Shown in pieces: positions 7,040 through 16,768 of a stretch of DNA of 53,368 nt. Below the pieces are notes generated by a model. The model was given only the letters and a program-made list of their open reading frames with translations, was not told the DNA's origin and ran no database searches. The DNA is from a virus. The stretch is from the IMG/VR virus record IMGVR_UViG_3300030388_000656, positions 1 to 53,368 of that record, one strand, 5' to 3'. Each line of letters begins with the position of its first letter. The first letter of the stretch is position 1. The position numbers and the translations under genes were made by a program.

Positions 7040-7131
7040 TTTGGTATGTTGATTGAATTTGATTGTTTACTTGATTAACTACTTCTTTTTATGTTAGAAT
7101 GTTGAATAAAATTAAAAAATAGAAAAGAGTA

Positions 7132-7139
7132 TAAAGATA
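7132..7139 (-). promoter_or_regulatory. possible promoter for the primase operon
   Basis: On the minus strand this reads TATCTTTA, one base off the TATCTTTG -7 box seen repeatedly in this genome. It lies in a 211-base AT-rich gap about 95 nt upstream of the primase start, just after the terminator of the SSB operon. The match is imperfect and no clear -33 box is visible. Confidence 0.3.
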
Positions 7140-7169
7140 TATATATAGTATACTACTAACCTACTAAAA

Positions 7170-7196
7170 TGTAAAAACTTTAACACTTCGACATAA
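7170..7196 (-). promoter_or_regulatory. shared upstream motif, copy 1 (primase operon)
   Basis: Minus strand reads TTTATGTCGAAGTGTTAA followed by a T-rich stretch. The same 18 bases, with one change, occur on the plus strand at 14964 upstream of groEL. Each is followed within about 60 bases by an (AT)n tract. It could be a binding site for a phage regulator or a promoter part. It is not a known element to me. Confidence 0.4.
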
Positions 7197-7229
7197 AAAA
7201 AAGAAAAAGAAAGGGGGAATTACCCCCCT
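7194..7229 (-). terminator. rho-independent terminator after the SSB-like gene
   Basis: On the minus strand the transcript forms AGGGGG (7229-7224), a six-base loop, then CCCCCT, followed directly by a pyrimidine run of about 18 bases, mostly T. It sits 20 bases past the SSB-like stop codon and separates the recombination operon from the primase operon. Confidence 0.8.
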
Positions 7230-7250
7230 AACTTATTCAGTTTGGTCTAA

Positions 7251-10015: not shown

Positions 10016-10224
10016 TTCTTTTTAAATCTAAATTGTGACATATCATTATTGATTGTCATCGGCTTTCTGTATAACGGAATAAGAGAGGTAAACTTGTCGT
10101 TATCCTCTCTCCTTCCACTATTCTTAAAATAATCATCAAACTCAATTACATTACTCCTGTAGTTGTCTTCGAATTCTTTTAGTCTTTTGTACTCTTCTAT
10201 AAATTCTCTGGTATCTGGACTCAT
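10012..10224 (-). CDS. hypothetical 70-aa protein
   Basis: 70 aa, charged. The helical N-terminus REFIEEYKRLKEFEDNYRS is followed by a basic tail ending RFKKK. No family was recognised. It overlaps both neighbours by four bases (ATGA-type), so it is co-translated with the Api92-like and DUF3310 genes. Confidence 0.65.
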   Translation of the reverse strand: MSPDTREFIEEYKRLKEFEDNYRSNVIEFDDYFKNSGRREDNDKFTSLIPLYRKPMTINNDMSQFRFKKK

Positions 10225-10823
10225 TCGACAATGATGTGTCTTTTACTCTCTTCTCTGATGTATTTTTTAGCTTCAACTAATGAAGTACCTAAAAACTCCA
10301 TACCCCACCAGTCGCAGTAGTATCCTATTCCACCATCGTAGTTTGGATGCTCATCTAATAACTTAGATAGATGGTATGTTTTCTTCTTATAAGTGTATTC
10401 AATTTCTTCATCAAAGTTTGGTTCATCGTATTCATCGTGCATAATCTGTTCTCCATTTTCATACTCCATCTCTCCTCCCCAGCCATTTTCTTCTTCCCAA
10501 TGGTAAATGAAGTCTGGAAAGTCCTTACTAAATAATTCAATGATGTTCATTCCAATACAGCTCCATGCTGAAGAGAAATTAATAGATCCCTCGTTTATGT
10601 CTATTTCGATGTCGTAACATCCCCATTTTGTATTCCAGTTATGAAGTCTCCATTCATACCATTTATGGTCTGCATCTCCCTTGTTTATCTCTGGAAGATA
10701 GTGTCTACATAAAGCTACTGGTTCTTCAGAATTCAATGTACTTTCCCAGTACTTTAGAATGTCTCTTTGTTTAGTGGTCATATCGTTACCGATTTGGATT
10801 CCACTCATTACATGATTTGGCAT
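10221..10823 (-). CDS. Api92-like / DUF1281-type protein
   Basis: 200 aa. It begins MPNHVMSGIQIGND and contains LHNWNTKWGCYDIEID, SINFSSAWSCIGMNIIELFSKDFPDF, HWEEENGWGG and YYCDWWGMEFLG. This is the NW.tKW...f.taWs...p pattern of the YubB/Api92 ferredoxin-like family, found in phages and plasmids and of unknown molecular function. It is rich in Trp and acidic residues. It follows the first hammerhead ribozyme: cleavage there would give its mRNA a leader of about 25 nt. Confidence 0.75.
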   Translation of the reverse strand: MPNHVMSGIQIGNDMTTKQRDILKYWESTLNSEEPVALCRHYLPEINKGDADHKWYEWRLHNWNTKWGCYDIEIDINEGSINFSSAWSCIGMNIIELFSKDFPDFIYHWEEENGWGGEMEYENGEQIMHDEYDEPNFDEEIEYTYKKKTYHLSKLLDEHPNYDGGIGYYCDWWGMEFLGTSLVEAKKYIREESKRHIIVE

Positions 10824-10842
10824 AATAGTTTTTGATTTTATT

Positions 10843-10895
10843 TATACTGACTACCTTTCGGTAGTTTCGGATACTGAATCCATCATCAGAGTATA
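10843..10895 (-). ncRNA. hammerhead ribozyme, type I, copy 1
   Basis: The minus-strand RNA has all core elements. Stem I: UAUACU (10895-10890) pairs with AGUAUA (10848-10843). Core CUGAUGA (10889-10883). An extra U, then stem II GGAU/AUCC with loop UCAGU. Core GAAA. Stem III ACUACC/GGUAGU closed by a GAAA tetraloop. Cleavage triplet GUC, with the cut expected after C at 10849. Stem I is the open stem (type I). The second copy at 13037 keeps the core while stems I and III differ by compensating changes, strong evidence for a real RNA fold. One extra nucleotide at this core position is known in a viroid hammerhead. It begins two bases after the upstream stop codon. Confidence 0.88.
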
Positions 10896-10896
10896 T

Positions 10897-11175
10897 TTAC
10901 AAGTGTCCTCCATACCCATTGGGAAGTTGGAATCTCCACTCGCTGTCGCTTTCTGGTTCGTTCATTCCTTCGTGGTCATGAACCCCACTACCAAACACAA
11001 TCTCAGTTTGGTTAATTAAATTATCTAAGACATCTACCCAGCTGTCTTCTATACTCATTAGGTAATCTGAAACATCTTCTTCTTTGATGTTCTCTGGTAG
11101 CTCTACCTCAATCTCGGTGTATTTATGATACACACTTCTCTGTTGTATTGTTACTGAATTTTTAGCCATTTCCAT
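10897..11175 (-). CDS. hypothetical 92-aa acidic protein
   Basis: 92 aa (90 if the next in-frame ATG at 11169 is used). Features are YTEIEVELPENIKEEDVSDYL, a short helix DVLDNLINQ, and the Gly-rich C-terminus LPNGYGGHL. Acidic. No family was recognised. It overlaps the upstream gene by 25 bases and stops two bases before hammerhead copy 1, so its mRNA 3' end would be made by ribozyme cleavage. Confidence 0.65.
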   Translation of the reverse strand: MEMAKNSVTIQQRSVYHKYTEIEVELPENIKEEDVSDYLMSIEDSWVDVLDNLINQTEIVFGSGVHDHEGMNEPESDSEWRFQLPNGYGGHL

Positions 11176-11390
11176 AGTTTTTCGGTTAAACTTAATTTAG
11201 GTACACAACCATATGATTCAAAGATTACATCCAGACTATTTATTTCTAATTCAATAAAGTGTTCTGAGTGTGGTGTGAAATCAAATGCTCCTGTTGTTGC
11301 GTTGTACTCTACTGCTTGCTCATCATACTTGTGATGGCACATCTCTTCAGCTATGTAGCGTTTGAGATTTTGTAATTCTACTTCATCCAT
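11151..11390 (-). CDS. hypothetical 79-aa acidic protein
   Basis: 79 aa. Helical N-terminus (EVELQNLKRYIAEEMCHHKYDEQ), then DFTPHSEHFIELEINSLDVIFES and a basic tail LTEKLWKWLKIQ. No family was recognised. It is the first gene after the TAnnTTTG-type box at 11431-11438, about 40 nt upstream, and so may start a separate transcript. Confidence 0.65.
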   Translation of the reverse strand: MDEVELQNLKRYIAEEMCHHKYDEQAVEYNATTGAFDFTPHSEHFIELEINSLDVIFESYGCVPKLSLTEKLWKWLKIQ

Positions 11391-11430
11391 GTTGTTTAAT
11401 TTAATTTAATTAATAGTTATTTTATGTTCA

Positions 11431-11448
11431 CAAAAGTATTAAATACTT
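11431..11448 (-). promoter_or_regulatory. promoter -7 box with adjoining inverted repeat
   Basis: Minus strand reads TACTTTTG (11438-11431), matching the Bacteroidota TAnnTTTG -7 box, about 41 nt before the start codon at 11390. An inverted repeat AAGTATT-A-AATACTT (11434-11448) overlaps the box and could be an operator. It lies in the only gap of this part of the operon without a structured RNA. Confidence 0.5.
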
Positions 11449-11462
11449 AGCTTAAATCCAAA

Positions 11463-11654
11463 TTATACTCCGTAAATTAATTTGAGTAATATCCACAGGA
11501 GGTAAGACACTATAAGAAGGAAAACAGATGCTCCCAGTCCAAATACTAATGCCTCCAGTAGGAACTTAGATGGGTTCTTCTGGATTCTTTCCCAGTCAGT
11601 ATCCTCCTTGTAGTTGTCGTACTTCTTGTCGATTTTGTTTATTCTATCTTTCAT
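11463..11654 (-). CDS. small membrane protein
   Basis: 63 aa. A charged N-terminal 30 residues (KDRINKIDKKYDNYKEDTDW) precede a long hydrophobic segment at about 32-61 (FLLEALVFGLGASVFLLIV and on), one long or two short transmembrane helices ending LKLIYGV. No family was recognised. It overlaps the upstream zinc-ribbon gene by four bases. Early membrane proteins of this kind in phages often alter host entry or envelope functions, but nothing specific is visible. Confidence 0.65.
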   Translation of the reverse strand: MKDRINKIDKKYDNYKEDTDWERIQKNPSKFLLEALVFGLGASVFLLIVSYLLWILLKLIYGV

Positions 11655-11878
11655 AATCCTTGTCTTTTCTCATCAGCTAAGTCTTCTAAATAAGACTCAT
11701 GCCTGTTGACATTATACTCATCTTCATCAATGATTTCGCACTCATCTTTGCACTCATCACAGATGTAGCATCCTTCTACCTCTTCGTTCTCTTCAAACTC
11801 TTCGTATCCAGCTCCACAGCAAGTACTAACTTCCTCTGAGTAATCTGGAGAGGCTAATTTCCAATTGTCGTAATTCAT
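11651..11878 (-). CDS. small zinc-ribbon-like protein
   Basis: 75 aa, strongly acidic. Cysteines are arranged as STCCGAGYEE then GCYICDECKDECEI, a pattern like rubredoxin/zinc-ribbon knuckles (CC..., CxxCxxxC). Such small proteins are common in phage early regions, and some bind host RNA polymerase or nucleic acid, but this role is not shown here. The gene is flanked by lipoprotein and membrane-protein genes in the same operon. Confidence 0.65.
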   Translation of the reverse strand: MNYDNWKLASPDYSEEVSTCCGAGYEEFEENEEVEGCYICDECKDECEIIDEDEYNVNRHESYLEDLADEKRQGL

Positions 11879-11888
11879 ATCTATTTAT

Positions 11889-12020
11889 TTATTTGTACCA
11901 ACCATAGGTCGGTAGTTTCTTGCATTGTCTTGTACTACTGCAAGAGATTAATGATAACAGCACAACCAAACAATATGTGTATGCCATGAGTTTTAAAAAT
12001 ACCTTTGTTGAGTTTTTCAT
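11889..12020 (-). CDS. tiny lipoprotein (43 aa)
   Basis: Read directly from the gap between neighbours. ATG at 12020, stop TAA at 11889, 43 aa. Basic start (MKNSTKVFLK), hydrophobic core AYTYCLVVLLSLI and lipobox LISC-SS at about residues 24-29, then a short mature peptide STRQCKKLPTYGWYK. Signal peptidase II processing would leave a mature lipopeptide of about 17 residues. It lies two bases after the stop of the 100-aa gene. With the second lipoprotein at 12435-12659 it resembles known phage superinfection-exclusion lipoproteins in kind only. Confidence 0.7.
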   Translation of the reverse strand: MKNSTKVFLKLMAYTYCLVVLLSLISCSSTRQCKKLPTYGWYK

Positions 12021-12022
12021 AT

Positions 12023-12325
12023 CTAAAATGGAAGTTCGTTAAAGCTATTTTCTATCTGGTCTGAATACCTTTTGAATATTTCATTCCAGTCAATACACTT
12101 GATATCTTCATACTCAAATTGCTCGCTGTCTACCAGTGACATGAATTCCGTTAAAGGATTGTCAAAGTTAGACTTATTGTCCAGAATAACACATAGTCTG
12201 TAAGTCTGTACATTTTTGTAGCCATAGAACTTCTCTTCTATGTCGTTCTTTTCTTTGGTAAGGTTCTCTACCAGTTCTTTGTACTTATTGATGTCTTCAA
12301 TAAGGTTCTTTGCAGTTAAATCCAT
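12023..12325 (-). CDS. hypothetical 100-aa acidic protein with SSB-like C-terminal tip
   Basis: 100 aa. N-terminal coiled coil (IEDINKYKELVENLTKEKND), then a mixed acidic region. The last residues NSFNELPF resemble the acidic-Pro-Phe tip of SSB proteins (compare NEDLPF in the SSB-like protein at 7251-7511). It could mimic the SSB tail to bind host or phage DNA-metabolism enzymes; this is speculation from four residues. It is preceded by the structured RNA at 12347-12393. Confidence 0.65.
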   Translation of the reverse strand: MDLTAKNLIEDINKYKELVENLTKEKNDIEEKFYGYKNVQTYRLCVILDNKSNFDNPLTEFMSLVDSEQFEYEDIKCIDWNEIFKRYSDQIENSFNELPF

Positions 12326-12346
12326 AGATCTATTTATTTAGGTTTT

Positions 12347-12393
12347 GAGGAACATCCCTCTACCACGAAATCCCCACTAATTTCTTAGTGAGG
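12347..12393 (-). ncRNA. two-hairpin RNA motif, copy A
   Basis: Minus-strand RNA: a 9-bp hairpin CCUCACUAA-GAAA-UUAGUGGGG (12393-12372), then single-stranded AUUUCGUGGUA (12371-12361), then a small hairpin GAGG/CCUC. Copy B at 13390-13435 has the same 9-bp stem length, the same GAAA tetraloop and an identical 11-base linker, while the stem sequence differs with compensating base pairs. It ends 21 nt before the start codon at 12325, so it is part of a 5' leader or intercistronic region. No known RNA family was recognised. Confidence 0.65.
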
Positions 12394-12396
12394 CAT

Positions 12397-12435
12397 GGGT
12401 ACGTTATCGTATCCTTCTGGGTACGTTATCGTATC
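12397..12435. repeat. two direct repeats of 17 bp, each with a short palindrome
   Basis: GGGTACGTTATCGTATC occurs at 12397-12413 and again at 12419-12435, a 22-base period. Each unit contains the inverted repeat TACG-TTAT-CGTA. The second unit touches the stop codon of the lipoprotein gene. It could be paired operator sites or small RNA hairpins just upstream of the two-hairpin motif. Confidence 0.7.
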
Positions 12436-12659
12436 TATTTTACTGGTTTCCTTCCTACATGATTGAAAAGGATGTAAAGACTATCTGTCTTATGCTGGTA
12501 CTCATTGTAGGTCTTTTGCAACTCGTAGTCAATTCGTTCTCTCTCCATTAATTGTAGCGTTGAGAATTTATATGAACTACATGATTGTAGTAAAAATGAT
12601 ACAGCCAGAACTACAAATGCATATCGCATGTAGTAAGTGAAAATTGTTTTTAAACTCAT
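12435..12659 (-). CDS. small lipoprotein (74 aa)
   Basis: 74 aa. The N-terminal signal MSLKTIFTYYMRYAFVVLAV leads into a lipobox LLQSC-SS (Cys about 27). The mature part is about 48 residues, charged and helical (ERERIDYELQKTYNEYQHKTDSL). The SCSS cleavage site is the same as in the 43-aa lipoprotein at 11889. Outer-membrane or periplasmic anchoring is expected. Phage early lipoproteins can block receptors or adsorption of other phages; that role here is inference. Confidence 0.75.
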   Translation of the reverse strand: MSLKTIFTYYMRYAFVVLAVSFLLQSCSSYKFSTLQLMERERIDYELQKTYNEYQHKTDSLYILFNHVGRKPVK

Positions 12660-12660
12660 C

Positions 12661-13008
12661 TTAGTTGTTTGTATTAGTTATTATTGCTTGCTCTTCTTCT
12701 GTATACTCTTGGATGTCTACCAGTTTACCATCTATCTCTTCGTACTGGATATCTTCATCCTCTACCCAGTCTGTCCAGTAATAAATCTCATCGTTGTAAG
12801 CCCATTCCATTAATTCTTCATCAGTCATCTTGCTTGGGTACAGCTGGTTTCCATCTTCATCCTCTGCTGTAAAATCTTGACCTCTCAAGGTGTCAATTAA
12901 GTCCTTGTCATTTGCAATATACTCGTGGTCGTTGTACAGGTAACCTTCGTTCATACCCTCTCCAGTTATACCACATTGTCTTGCCCAAAAAATTCTTTCT
13001 TTACTCAT
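12661..13008 (-). CDS. hypothetical 115-aa very acidic protein
   Basis: I chose the ATG at 13008 (MSKERIFWARQCG), because the longer frame to 13080 runs through hammerhead ribozyme copy 2. The protein is strongly acidic with many Glu, Asp and Trp: MTDEELMEWAYNDEIYYWTDWV, EDEDIQYEEIDG. No family was recognised; the composition suggests a DNA-mimic or a binder of a host protein. Ribozyme cleavage at 13042/13043 would give its mRNA a 34-nt leader. Confidence 0.7.
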   Translation of the reverse strand: MSKERIFWARQCGITGEGMNEGYLYNDHEYIANDKDLIDTLRGQDFTAEDEDGNQLYPSKMTDEELMEWAYNDEIYYWTDWVEDEDIQYEEIDGKLVDIQEYTEEEQAIITNTNN

Positions 13009-13036
13009 CTTATTTGAATTAGTTTGTATCATTATT

Positions 13037-13089
13037 GATAGTGACTGCCAGCTGGCAGTTTCGGATATTAAATCCATCATCAGACTATC
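13037..13089 (-). ncRNA. hammerhead ribozyme, type I, copy 2
   Basis: Minus-strand RNA: stem I GAUAGU (13089-13084) with ACUAUC (13042-13037); CUGAUGA (13083-13077); one extra U; stem II GGAU/AUCC with loop UUAAU; GAAA; stem III ACUGCC/GGCAGU with loop AGCU; GUC with the cut expected between 13043 and 13042. The total is 53 nt, the same as copy 1. Compared with copy 1, four of six stem I pairs and one stem III pair are changed with pairing kept, while all core bases are identical. The 5' strand of stem I includes the stop codon of the upstream gene (13085-13087). Confidence 0.9.
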
Positions 13090-13372
13090 TGCTTCCCTCC
13101 ATGCAGTCTTTAAACATTATCCAGTCAGATACTTTCATGTCTTCAAATATCACATGTCCAAGCACGCTTACTAACTCCTCTTTCATTGTAGTTTGTGCCA
13201 TGATTAATCTAAGTTTTGGATAGTAGATACCTCCCATTTCATATGAGATTTTCTCTTCATCTTCTGGAGTTAATGTGTCTTTGATTCTGATACAATTCAT
13301 CTCTCTCTGAATTAACTCATTTCTGAAATCGTGCTTTAACATCTGTACTTGGTTTAAAATCTTTGCGTTCAT
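13085..13372 (-). CDS. hypothetical 95-aa protein
   Basis: 95 aa, helical. Begins MNAKILNQVQMLKHDFRNEL and contains LTPEDEEKISYEMGG and VSVLGHVIFEDMKVSDW. No family was recognised. It is framed by two structured RNAs: the two-hairpin motif ends 17 nt before its start, and hammerhead copy 2 overlaps its stop codon. Ribosomes terminating here would cover stem I of the ribozyme. Confidence 0.65.
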   Translation of the reverse strand: MNAKILNQVQMLKHDFRNELIQREMNCIRIKDTLTPEDEEKISYEMGGIYYPKLRLIMAQTTMKEELVSVLGHVIFEDMKVSDWIMFKDCMEGSR

Positions 13373-13389
13373 GTCTTTAATTTTAGTTT

Positions 13390-13435
13390 AGGAATAGTCC
13401 TGTACCACGAAATCCTCGCATATTTCTATGCAAGG
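13390..13435 (-). ncRNA. two-hairpin RNA motif, copy B
   Basis: Minus-strand RNA: the 9-bp hairpin CCUUGCAUA-GAAA-UAUGCGAGG (13435-13414), the invariant AUUUCGUGGUA (13413-13403), then AGGA-CUAU-UCCU (13401-13390). Stem 1 differs from copy A at several pairs with pairing kept; loop and linker are unchanged. It ends 17 nt before the start codon at 13372. The gap of 83 bases holds nothing else evident. Confidence 0.65.
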
Positions 13436-13455
13436 CTTTCTCTGGAGAGGGGTTT

Positions 13456-13752
13456 CTACGATATTCTCGGCACAACAGCATCATCATCTGGGTTGTTTGC
13501 ACTTTCATATATACCTATGAAGTCATGCACTACATCCGTTAACCTGTGCTTACTGAGTCTATTCATTCCGTATTTTGTTACTTCCTCTACCCATTCTTGA
13601 TTGGTTTCTACTACTTGTTTGAGCATGTCTCTTACTGGCTTATTCTCTTGCTTAGAGATTTCTAACATCCAGTTCATAGGCATGAGAATATCTAATCTCA
13701 TTACTAATTCTTGTCTCTTTTGTTGTGCTAAAATTTGATTGGAAATATGCAT
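13456..13752 (-). CDS. hypothetical 98-aa protein
   Basis: 98 aa, helical: begins MHISNQILAQQKRQELVMRLDI, then KQENKPVRDMLKQVVETNQEW and HRLTDVVHDFIGIYES, and ends in an acidic NPDDDAVVPRIS. No family was recognised. It is the second gene from the early promoter at 14074-14081 and is followed by the two-hairpin RNA copy B. Confidence 0.65.
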   Translation of the reverse strand: MHISNQILAQQKRQELVMRLDILMPMNWMLEISKQENKPVRDMLKQVVETNQEWVEEVTKYGMNRLSKHRLTDVVHDFIGIYESANNPDDDAVVPRIS

Positions 13753-15121: not shown

Positions 15122-16768
15122 ATGGAACAAGGATACATTCCTAAAGACCTCAGCTTTGATGATGAGGCAAGGAACAAATTGATAAGTGGGATTACTAAAA
15201 TCTCCAAAGCAGTTAAGAGTACGTTAGGGCCAAGAGGTCAAACTGTTTTAATAGAATCAACAGAACATTTACAGGGGTTAACTATTACAAAGGATGGAGT
15301 TACTGTCGCTAAGTCAGTACACCTTGATGATCCTATTGAGAACCTTGCAGTTCGTATGATGAAGCAAGCTTCTGAGAAGACTGCTAATGTTGCTGGAGAT
15401 GGAACTACTACAGCTATTGTATTGACTGAAGCTATTGTCCAGGCAGGAATGAAATGGATCAAGCCTTATCATAATGTAACTGACATTGTTAGATACATAA
15501 GAGAGGACTCTGATGTTATTATAGAGAACATTAGGAATAGATCATTAGAGGTTACTGATGATATGTTAAAAGACATTGCAGCTATATCAGCTAACAATGA
15601 TTATGAGTTAGGAGATATTATCTCTGAAGCATATCAACAAGTTGGTAAGGATGGGATAGTAACAGTTGAGAGATCTCAAACTGACAAGACATATTCAGAG
15701 GTTACTAATGGAATAAGAATAGATAGAGGTTATACTTCTCCTATGTTTATTAATGATCAAAGAAAAGATGAATGTATTATGGAAGGTGTTAAGGTTTTAA
15801 TCTGCGACACTGAGATTCATAACATACTTCAAATAGAGAATATACTTAAACCAATTATTAATGCAGGAGATAAACTTTTAATTATCGGAACTTGTGCTGG
15901 CAATGTTATAAATACATTAGCAGCAAATGTTCAACGTAATGGATTAAAGTTTTGTAACATCATGCCTCCTTCATTTGGATACAAGACTCATGAGTTAATG
16001 CAGGATATTGCATTTGCTACTGGAGCTAAATACTTTTCAGAAAAGACTGGAGATGATTTATCTATTATAACTATGGCAGACTTGGGTTATGCTGATAAGA
16101 TTATAGTAGGCAAGTCATCTACTGTTATTATAAAGCAAGGAGATATTAGTGATGAGACATCTTCAAGAGTAGCAGAGCTACGAGATCAACAAGAAAGACT
16201 TACAGCAAAACATGAGAAGGACTTTATCAATGAAAGGATTGCTTCTTTAGTTGGAGGGATAGGTTGTATATATGTTGGGGCTACATCTGATATAGAACAA
16301 AAAGAAAAATTTGACAGAGTCGATGACTCTGTCTGTGCAGTACGTTCAGCTCTACAAGAAGGAGTTGTTCCTGGTGGAGGATTATTGTTATATGATTTCT
16401 CAAGACACTTCGGTTGTAACTGTGAAGATGCAGTATCTGAAAAGATAGATGAAGACCAGGCAGCAGAAATGATTATGAGAGAAGCTTTGAAAGCTCCACT
16501 AAAACAAATCCTTGCTAATGCTGGGCTTGATGAAAAGGAAGTTATGTCAGAGATATATACTGATGCTATGTTAGGAACATTAGATGATGCTCCTGAAGTA
16601 CCAGAAAATAACAGAGGCTATGATGTGGTAGGTAAACAATACGGAGATATGTTTGAGATGGGTATTGTTGATCCAGCCAAAGTAACGAAAGAAGCTTTGC
16701 TTAATGCAATTAGTGTTGCAACAACTATACTAACTACTAACGCAATCATAACACATAAACGAGCATGA
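15122..16768 (+). CDS. groEL: phage-encoded chaperonin GroEL
   Basis: 548 aa, full family length. Near the N-terminus are SKAVKSTLGPRGQTVLI and TITKDGVTVAKSV. The nucleotide-binding motif GDGTTTA sits at 92-98 (the phosphate-binding Asp is 93), and a second equatorial segment at about 400-425 has RVDDSVCAVRSALQEGVV then PGGG. The C-terminus lacks the GGM-repeat tail of host GroEL. It forms a folding cage for proteins, here probably the major capsid or other virion proteins. groES follows with an ATGA overlap. Sequence away from the ATP site looks divergent, suggesting long residence in phages rather than a recent host capture. Confidence 0.95.
   Translation: MEQGYIPKDLSFDDEARNKLISGITKISKAVKSTLGPRGQTVLIESTEHLQGLTITKDGVTVAKSVHLDDPIENLAVRMMKQASEKTANVAGDGTTTAIVLTEAIVQAGMKWIKPYHNVTDIVRYIREDSDVIIENIRNRSLEVTDDMLKDIAAISANNDYELGDIISEAYQQVGKDGIVTVERSQTDKTYSEVTNGIRIDRGYTSPMFINDQRKDECIMEGVKVLICDTEIHNILQIENILKPIINAGDKLLIIGTCAGNVINTLAANVQRNGLKFCNIMPPSFGYKTHELMQDIAFATGAKYFSEKTGDDLSIITMADLGYADKIIVGKSSTVIIKQGDISDETSSRVAELRDQQERLTAKHEKDFINERIASLVGGIGCIYVGATSDIEQKEKFDRVDDSVCAVRSALQEGVVPGGGLLLYDFSRHFGCNCEDAVSEKIDEDQAAEMIMREALKAPLKQILANAGLDEKEVMSEIYTDAMLGTLDDAPEVPENNRGYDVVGKQYGDMFEMGIVDPAKVTKEALLNAISVATTILTTNAIITHKRA

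Follow-up and report, generated by a model that had tools for sequence, protein, structure and literature searches.

Four structured RNAs lie between the genes of the minus-strand arm in the virus record IMGVR_UViG_3300030388_000656, which comes from a phage described as marine and was analysed over positions 1-53,368 (a stretch of 53,368 bases, the window of what follows). We think it rather probable that these elements are separators, set between the stop codon of one gene and the start codon of the next, that divide the early/replication polycistronic mRNA of a phage with a probable flavobacterial host. In order of transcription they are hairpin B (13402-13447), hammerhead 2 (13037-13089), hairpin A (12360-12402) and hammerhead 1 (10843-10895), and the motif of hairpins A and B is here named MAB. 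Our reading is built on the structures, their covariation, strand, placement and interchange, and it would have the RNA cleaved and the resulting segments separately translated or decayed as mRNAs.

All four elements are in the place and order given by the original prediction, which also had them in four of the longest gaps of a tightly packed operon. The largest gaps in the arm are 211, 109 (hairpin A), 83 (hairpin B), 76 (the hammerhead at 13 kb), 73 (the hammerhead at 10.9 kb), 72 (with a promoter-like site) and 67 nucleotides (nt), and the elements take ranks 2 to 5; nearly all of the others are shorter than 21 nt or negative. The description of the genes concerned as small acidic and lipoprotein genes also holds, with isoelectric points (pI) of 4.1-5.5 for most of the products and lipobox proteins of 74 and 43 amino acids (aa).

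Both hammerheads are of type I, on the minus strand, with three helices of which stem I is open-ended, and with 6, 4 and 6 base pairs (bp) in stems I, II and III. The type I core C3-U-G-A-N-G-A9, G12-A-A, A15.1-U16.1 and H17 is complete in each (CUGAUGA, GAAA..U, C17). Hammerhead 1 (58.0 bits, E 5.4e-16) runs from stem I through CUGAUGA, an extra U, stem II, GAAA and stem III to C17, and its predicted cut at 10849/10848 would leave 25 nt as leader ahead of the ATG at 10823 of an MPNHV/DUF1281-like gene. Hammerhead 2 (62.9 bits, E 1.4e-17) has GAUAGU/ACUAUC as stem I and again an extra U preceding stem II; the predicted cut, at 13043/13042, is 34 nt upstream of the ATG at 13008 of an acidic 115-aa gene. 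The two differ from each other in a compensatory manner in stem I (TATACT/AGTATA vs GATAGT/ACTATC) and in stem III. The scores are from a model, R3, trained on 16 hammerheads from relatives only and none from the window, that picks exactly these two sites in the window with the next best at E 0.065, E-values of our purpose-built models being rough. A third hammerhead-like repeat, at 11888-11919, was rejected as coding sequence: the core is absent and the repeat is inside the gene for the 43-aa lipoprotein.

No hammerhead was matched when the window was searched against Rfam at gathering and relaxed thresholds. This is not evidence of absence, as the canonical hammerheads of the relatives, which serve as a positive control, also fall below threshold: their best matches, to RF03152 (RAGATH-1-hammerhead) and RF00008 (Hammerhead_3), are at 21-27 bits, against gathering thresholds of 56.3 and 48.5, with 22.9-27.1 bits for RF03152, to which the window copies have no match. 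When the region or single elements were compared with phages by BLASTN there was no credible match.

Hammerheads were also sought in the relatives, which were chosen solely by their primase, and there are 56 cores in 28 of the 41 whole relatives with one match in the reversed control; the loci are related and partly redundant, so these and the later counts are not of independent events. A hammerhead descriptor gave 34 matches on the coding strand of 81 sequences, and none on the other strand or in reversed sequence, while R3 gave 45 matches in relatives and sequenced phages. In the 16 sequences from relatives 14 of the 17 pairs have changes on both sides, covering all three stems, and 99.3% of cells are paired, vs 64.9% after shuffling and 19-44% in slid controls. 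From structure and family membership the hammerheads very probably cut RNA. In seven relatives (L005, L010, L012, L013, L015, L058 and L069) the sequence GUAUC-AUAA-GAUAC is just 3' of the hammerhead, at the start of the predicted 3' cleavage product, and could refold as a 5' hairpin, trapping the stem I strand after the predicted cut.

In the usual hammerhead stem II follows directly after A9, and the extra U found at this point in both window copies recurs in the relatives L013 and L022, making four copies in three phages. De la Pena and Flores reportedly described in 2001 a hammerhead with an extra core nucleotide, that of Chrysanthemum chlorotic mottle viroid. The viroid hammerhead, with its extra nucleotide between A9 and helix II, is active, and the window hammerheads are like it in the position of the additional residue, but differ in that the residue is U and that they are in a phage DNA genome.

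The family extends to cultured phages. Each of the elemo phages A, C, D, E and F, with Flavobacterium sp. BAL314 as host, has one hammerhead (5 of 5 tested); that of MT497072 (L382) is an unannotated type I hammerhead on the minus strand at 16304-16361, between two early genes, and there are others in MT497065, MT497067, MT497071 and MT497091. The layout in elemoE is TAG, hammerhead, 28 nt and ATG, a geometry as in the relatives of the window. Phages A and E have GACU/AGUC as stem II, and C has GGUU/AACC, a double compensatory change; in D and F it is GACU/AACC, with two broken pairs, and CUGACGA replaces CUGAUGA.

The second family, MAB, is a real, covarying RNA family, previously uncatalogued. 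Its P1 has 5 bp, the internal loop is asymmetric, with UUU on the 3' side, and P2, of 9-10 bp, is closed at the base by CUC/GGG; UA comes after P1, and a further hairpin, P3, is often present. Motif A (12360-12402, minus strand; 51.6 bits, E 1.5e-11, fold z -3.9) has P1 CCAUG/CGUGG, P2 CCUCACUAA/UUAGUGGGG with a GAAA loop, AUUU as 3' internal loop and then UA, directly followed by the P3 hairpin GAGGGAUGUUCCUC (12347-12360), which is recurrent in relatives; the next ATG is at 12325. Motif B (13402-13447, minus strand; 28.3 bits, E 2.9e-5, fold z -3.6) has a weak P1 (CCA/UGG), P2 CCUUGCAUA/UAUGCGAGG, and then UA and a P3-like AGGACUAUUCCU. The second-round model, R2, with motif A in its training set and motif B not, finds exactly these two in the window (next best E 0.67). 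Just 5' of motif A, at 12396-12435, TGGGTACGTTATCGTATC is present twice, exactly, 22 nt apart.

The same pattern is found at about 50 other places in the relatives. A covariance model built from nine copies gave 48 matches in the 81 sequences, in which 12 of 14 pairs have double changes and 96.8% are paired, vs 77.6% after shuffling, and slid versions collapse. P1 varies freely, each version having its matching partner (CCACG/CGUGG, CUACC/GGUAG, CCUAG/CUAGG, CCCAA/UUGGG, CUGCG/CGUAG, ACACG/CGUGU), and in a set of 48 copies the arms fit their own partner in 24, vs 7.4 (maximum 15) after arm swapping. In 80 relatives the 56 matches of R2 are without exception on the coding strand, and there are 40 copies in 22 of the 41 whole relatives. 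No family was matched in Rfam 15, at gathering or with E up to 5-10; MAB was not found in 13 sequenced phage records of wider kinship, and 15-mer matches in GTDB genomes were of chance type. Three other viral contigs, L106, L159 and L181, have a different recurrent pre-gene hairpin (CCACG..GCCCCG(C/A)..GGGGC TTT CGTGG TATAA), which came from a pattern search and is possibly biased.

A GC-rich hairpin followed by 3-4 U invites the suggestion that expression is graded along the operon by MAB, as a weak intrinsic terminator or attenuator. When the model was run against 399 Flavobacteriaceae genomes there were weak matches in 6, and the four inspected are bidirectional terminators; the best false matches of the model are of this kind. 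However, about six U or more would run free after the hairpin of an intrinsic terminator, whereas in MAB the run ends after 3-4 and is followed by the paired P1' strand, being enclosed by a covarying P1 helix for which a terminator has no need. We regard termination as quite unlikely.

The placement of both families is tight, in relatives for which genes were called mechanically. For hammerheads (47 copies) the median distance to the upstream stop codon is 0 nt (interquartile range, IQR, -5 to 2), with the stop touching or overlapping stem I, and from the predicted cut to the next ATG it is 25 nt (IQR 23-30.5). The first base of MAB is at a median of 13 nt past the stop codon (IQR 12-15); from the end of its UA to the ATG there are 33 nt (IQR 21-35), or near 20 nt in a second group, which is without P3. 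A ribosome on the stop codon would be expected to sit over the 5' strand of stem I in hammerheads yet to clear MAB.

MAB could instead be a leader for control of translation or for binding of protein, acting on the downstream gene through a repressor or ribosome access, with only the hammerheads segmenting the RNA. It is on the 5' side of the next gene, 21-35 nt from the ATG, and is conserved beyond pairing (UUU, UA, and CUC/GGG with a nearly fixed U-G wobble), as would be expected of a recognised site. But the spacing from the upstream stop is at least as tight as that from the ATG, the genes after MAB are from many unrelated families, and MAB is swapped with hammerheads, which are not themselves regulators in that sense. 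We see a leader as possible but somewhat doubtful. MAB as a promoter-linked leader was rejected as a rule: the TAnnTTTG-like letters before some copies coincide with the stop codon, and the window copies lack them.

The exchange of the two elements is seen on clustering of the downstream genes. For several gene families the preceding element differs between phages, being a hammerhead in one and MAB in another: MPNHV/DUF1281-like, MGYNTDW, MITTS, the gene after motif B and others, with MKILELF and MGTRSL added on reading of the G021 arm. Orthologues of the 200-aa MPNHV protein are preceded by a hammerhead in L002 and by MAB in L028, L035 and L038; in L010 paralogues of one family are one behind a hammerhead and one behind MAB, and in L069 a hammerhead comes immediately after a MAB. 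G021 (L392/L393, IMGVR_UViG_3300030060_003974) has eight hammerheads and two MABs in one early arm, separating most of its genes; many of these genes have a shared leader, ACTATCAAA, before the ATG.

Alternation of the two kinds, from which the original prediction had drawn a deliberate layer of RNA-level control, was rejected as a designed pattern. The order in the window does alternate, but in 16 relatives carrying both kinds there are 25 switches vs 25.2 expected by chance, and as order is random with respect to kind the alternation in the window is uninformative. What survives of the prediction is the RNA-level layer at gene boundaries, supported by the tight placement relative to stop and start codons across many phages and by the mutual replacement of hammerhead and MAB before orthologous genes.

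Because it occupies the same slot and is exchanged before orthologous genes, MAB most likely serves the same end as the hammerheads, as a boundary between mRNAs. One way for it to do so would be as a new class of self-cleaving ribozyme, occurring beside hammerheads as do pistol and hatchet. The slot and the interchange are as for hammerheads, covariation is strong and the invariant unpaired bases form a small set, there is no Rfam match, and P3 would cap the 3' product with a 5' hairpin, comparable to the GUAUC-AUAA-GAUAC after seven of the hammerheads. However, the conserved unpaired bases (UUU, UA) are few for a catalytic core, and the 5' side of the internal loop is variable in length and sequence, and we consider such a ribozyme unlikely. 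A broader proposal, that MAB is either a new self-cleaving class or a dedicated phage RNA-cutting site interchangeable with hammerheads, such that most early genes would be split by a self-acting cut between stop and start, we would put only slightly higher, as rather unlikely.

It may also be asked if the elements are boundary cassettes for gene shuffling by homologous recombination, with no role in RNA processing. Near-identical MABs precede different genes in L043, L052, L059 and L087, and the hammerheads of elemoD and elemoF resemble a recombinant of two stem II versions. The compensatory changes keep RNA pairing in stems that otherwise vary freely, which DNA homology would not do, and we find the cassette explanation, taken alone, very improbable. 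T4-like phages have promoter-stem-loop boundary cassettes (PeSLs), in which a repeated intergenic stem-loop with a leader is found before different genes. MAB is like the PeSLs as a repeated intergenic stem-loop ahead of different genes, but differs in that its RNA pairing covaries and in that no promoter is fixed in the gap, the stop codon being just 13 nt upstream.

For MAB, then, an endonuclease site or a boundary recognised by protein would rank first, followed by a leader or regulator, a new ribozyme and a weak terminator, and our first choice for mode of action would be a site for an RNase III-like endonuclease. The RNase III sites of phage T7 have an asymmetric internal loop, and MAB shares the trait of a hairpin with such a loop between genes of an early operon. 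It differs from them in that its helix, of 14 pairs plus the internal loop, is probably shorter (a T7-type site has about two helical turns), in that its sequence is conserved and in that it alternates with hammerheads, and cutting by RNase III is only conjectured for MAB. In T7 the early-region sites R0.3 to R1.3 are intergenic hairpins that divide the polycistronic mRNA into mono- or dicistronic mRNAs (PMC4858673).

In the reading we prefer, that of separators, the hammerheads would cut nascent polycistronic RNA just upstream of the next gene. The upstream mRNA would be left with a structured 3' end, of stems II and III and a 2',3'-cyclic phosphate; at the start of the downstream gene there would be a 5'-OH, followed by a short leader, A/U-rich and about 25 nt long. 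In this way the long early RNA would probably yield short mRNAs whose ends are defined, as is achieved in T7 by RNase III. That the segments would differ in lifetime, as was also suggested in the original prediction, is plausible.

Several points weigh against separation of this kind. A consensus-like promoter site within the four-element stretch, TTG-N20-TACTTTTG at 11431-11461 on the minus strand in the 72-nt gap, speaks against a single transcript; over the whole window sites of this type are at only about 1.7-fold the shuffled number. The extra U between A9 and stem II could slow cleavage in both window hammerheads. The tight placement could in part reflect genome packing or cassette exchange. 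MAB has no known relative and is absent from the 13 phage records, so that its position is what would indicate its function.

With regard to the genes themselves, all on the minus strand, a 98-aa gene (13456-13752) is upstream of motif B, its stop codon preceding the motif match by about 10 nt, and a 95-aa gene (13085-13372), whose L358 homologue is preceded by a hammerhead instead, is between motif B and hammerhead 2. After hammerhead 2 is the acidic 115-aa gene (12661-13008, pI 4.1), with homologues in L005, L015 and L359 that are likewise preceded by a hammerhead, and then the gene for the 74-aa lipoprotein (12435-12659), predicted from its sequence (VLAVSFLLQSC), upstream of motif A. An acidic 100-aa gene (12023-12325) follows motif A, an acidic 92-aa gene (10897-11175) is upstream of hammerhead 1, and the 200-aa MPNHV protein (10221-10823) after it has a weak DUF1281_C (Api92-like) match, just below cut-off. 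In addition to small genes the arm includes those for a protein with a DnaA C-terminal domain, a Sak-type annealing protein, an exonuclease, a primase and a helicase. The longest gap, of 211 nt (7040-7250), is before the primase gene and has a terminator-like G/C hairpin, GGGGGGTAATTCCCCC, with a T-rich tail. The portal protein of the window resembles those of MW202828 (67%), Maribacter phage Panino and the Flavobacterium elemo phages, and from such relatives the host is probably flavobacterial. A GroEL-like chaperonin is encoded at 15122-16768 (PHROG E 1e-132), and genes annotated as groEL and chaperonin-10 are present in MW202828 as well.

Clustered hammerheads of types I-III are known to flank phage and prophage genes, and splitting of long phage RNA into gene-length mRNAs has been proposed for them; the tandem hammerheads tested, from three bacteria, cleaved in vitro, and for the Agrobacterium triple there was activity in E. 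coli too (Perreault et al. 2011, PMC3088659). Our copies resemble those clusters in that several hammerheads on one strand flank single genes of changing identity. They differ in being fixed exactly between stop and start, with up to eight per arm, in being interleaved with and replaced by a second, unrelated RNA family, and in that the host group appears to be Flavobacteria. Relative to the 2011 proposal the new points are MAB, the geometry of placement, the exchange between the two families and a system that can be cultured.

The reason for clustered phage hammerheads has been a standing question since 2011. The placement rule of stop, ribozyme, about 25 nt and start, together with exchange with a second RNA family, makes the segmentation idea directly testable, and the elemo phages, on one Flavobacterium host, provide a natural set in which stem II is intact (A, E), compensated (C) or disrupted (D, F). 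MAB is a well-supported RNA family lacking an Rfam entry, and of the elements described here it is the strongest candidate for a new processing element.

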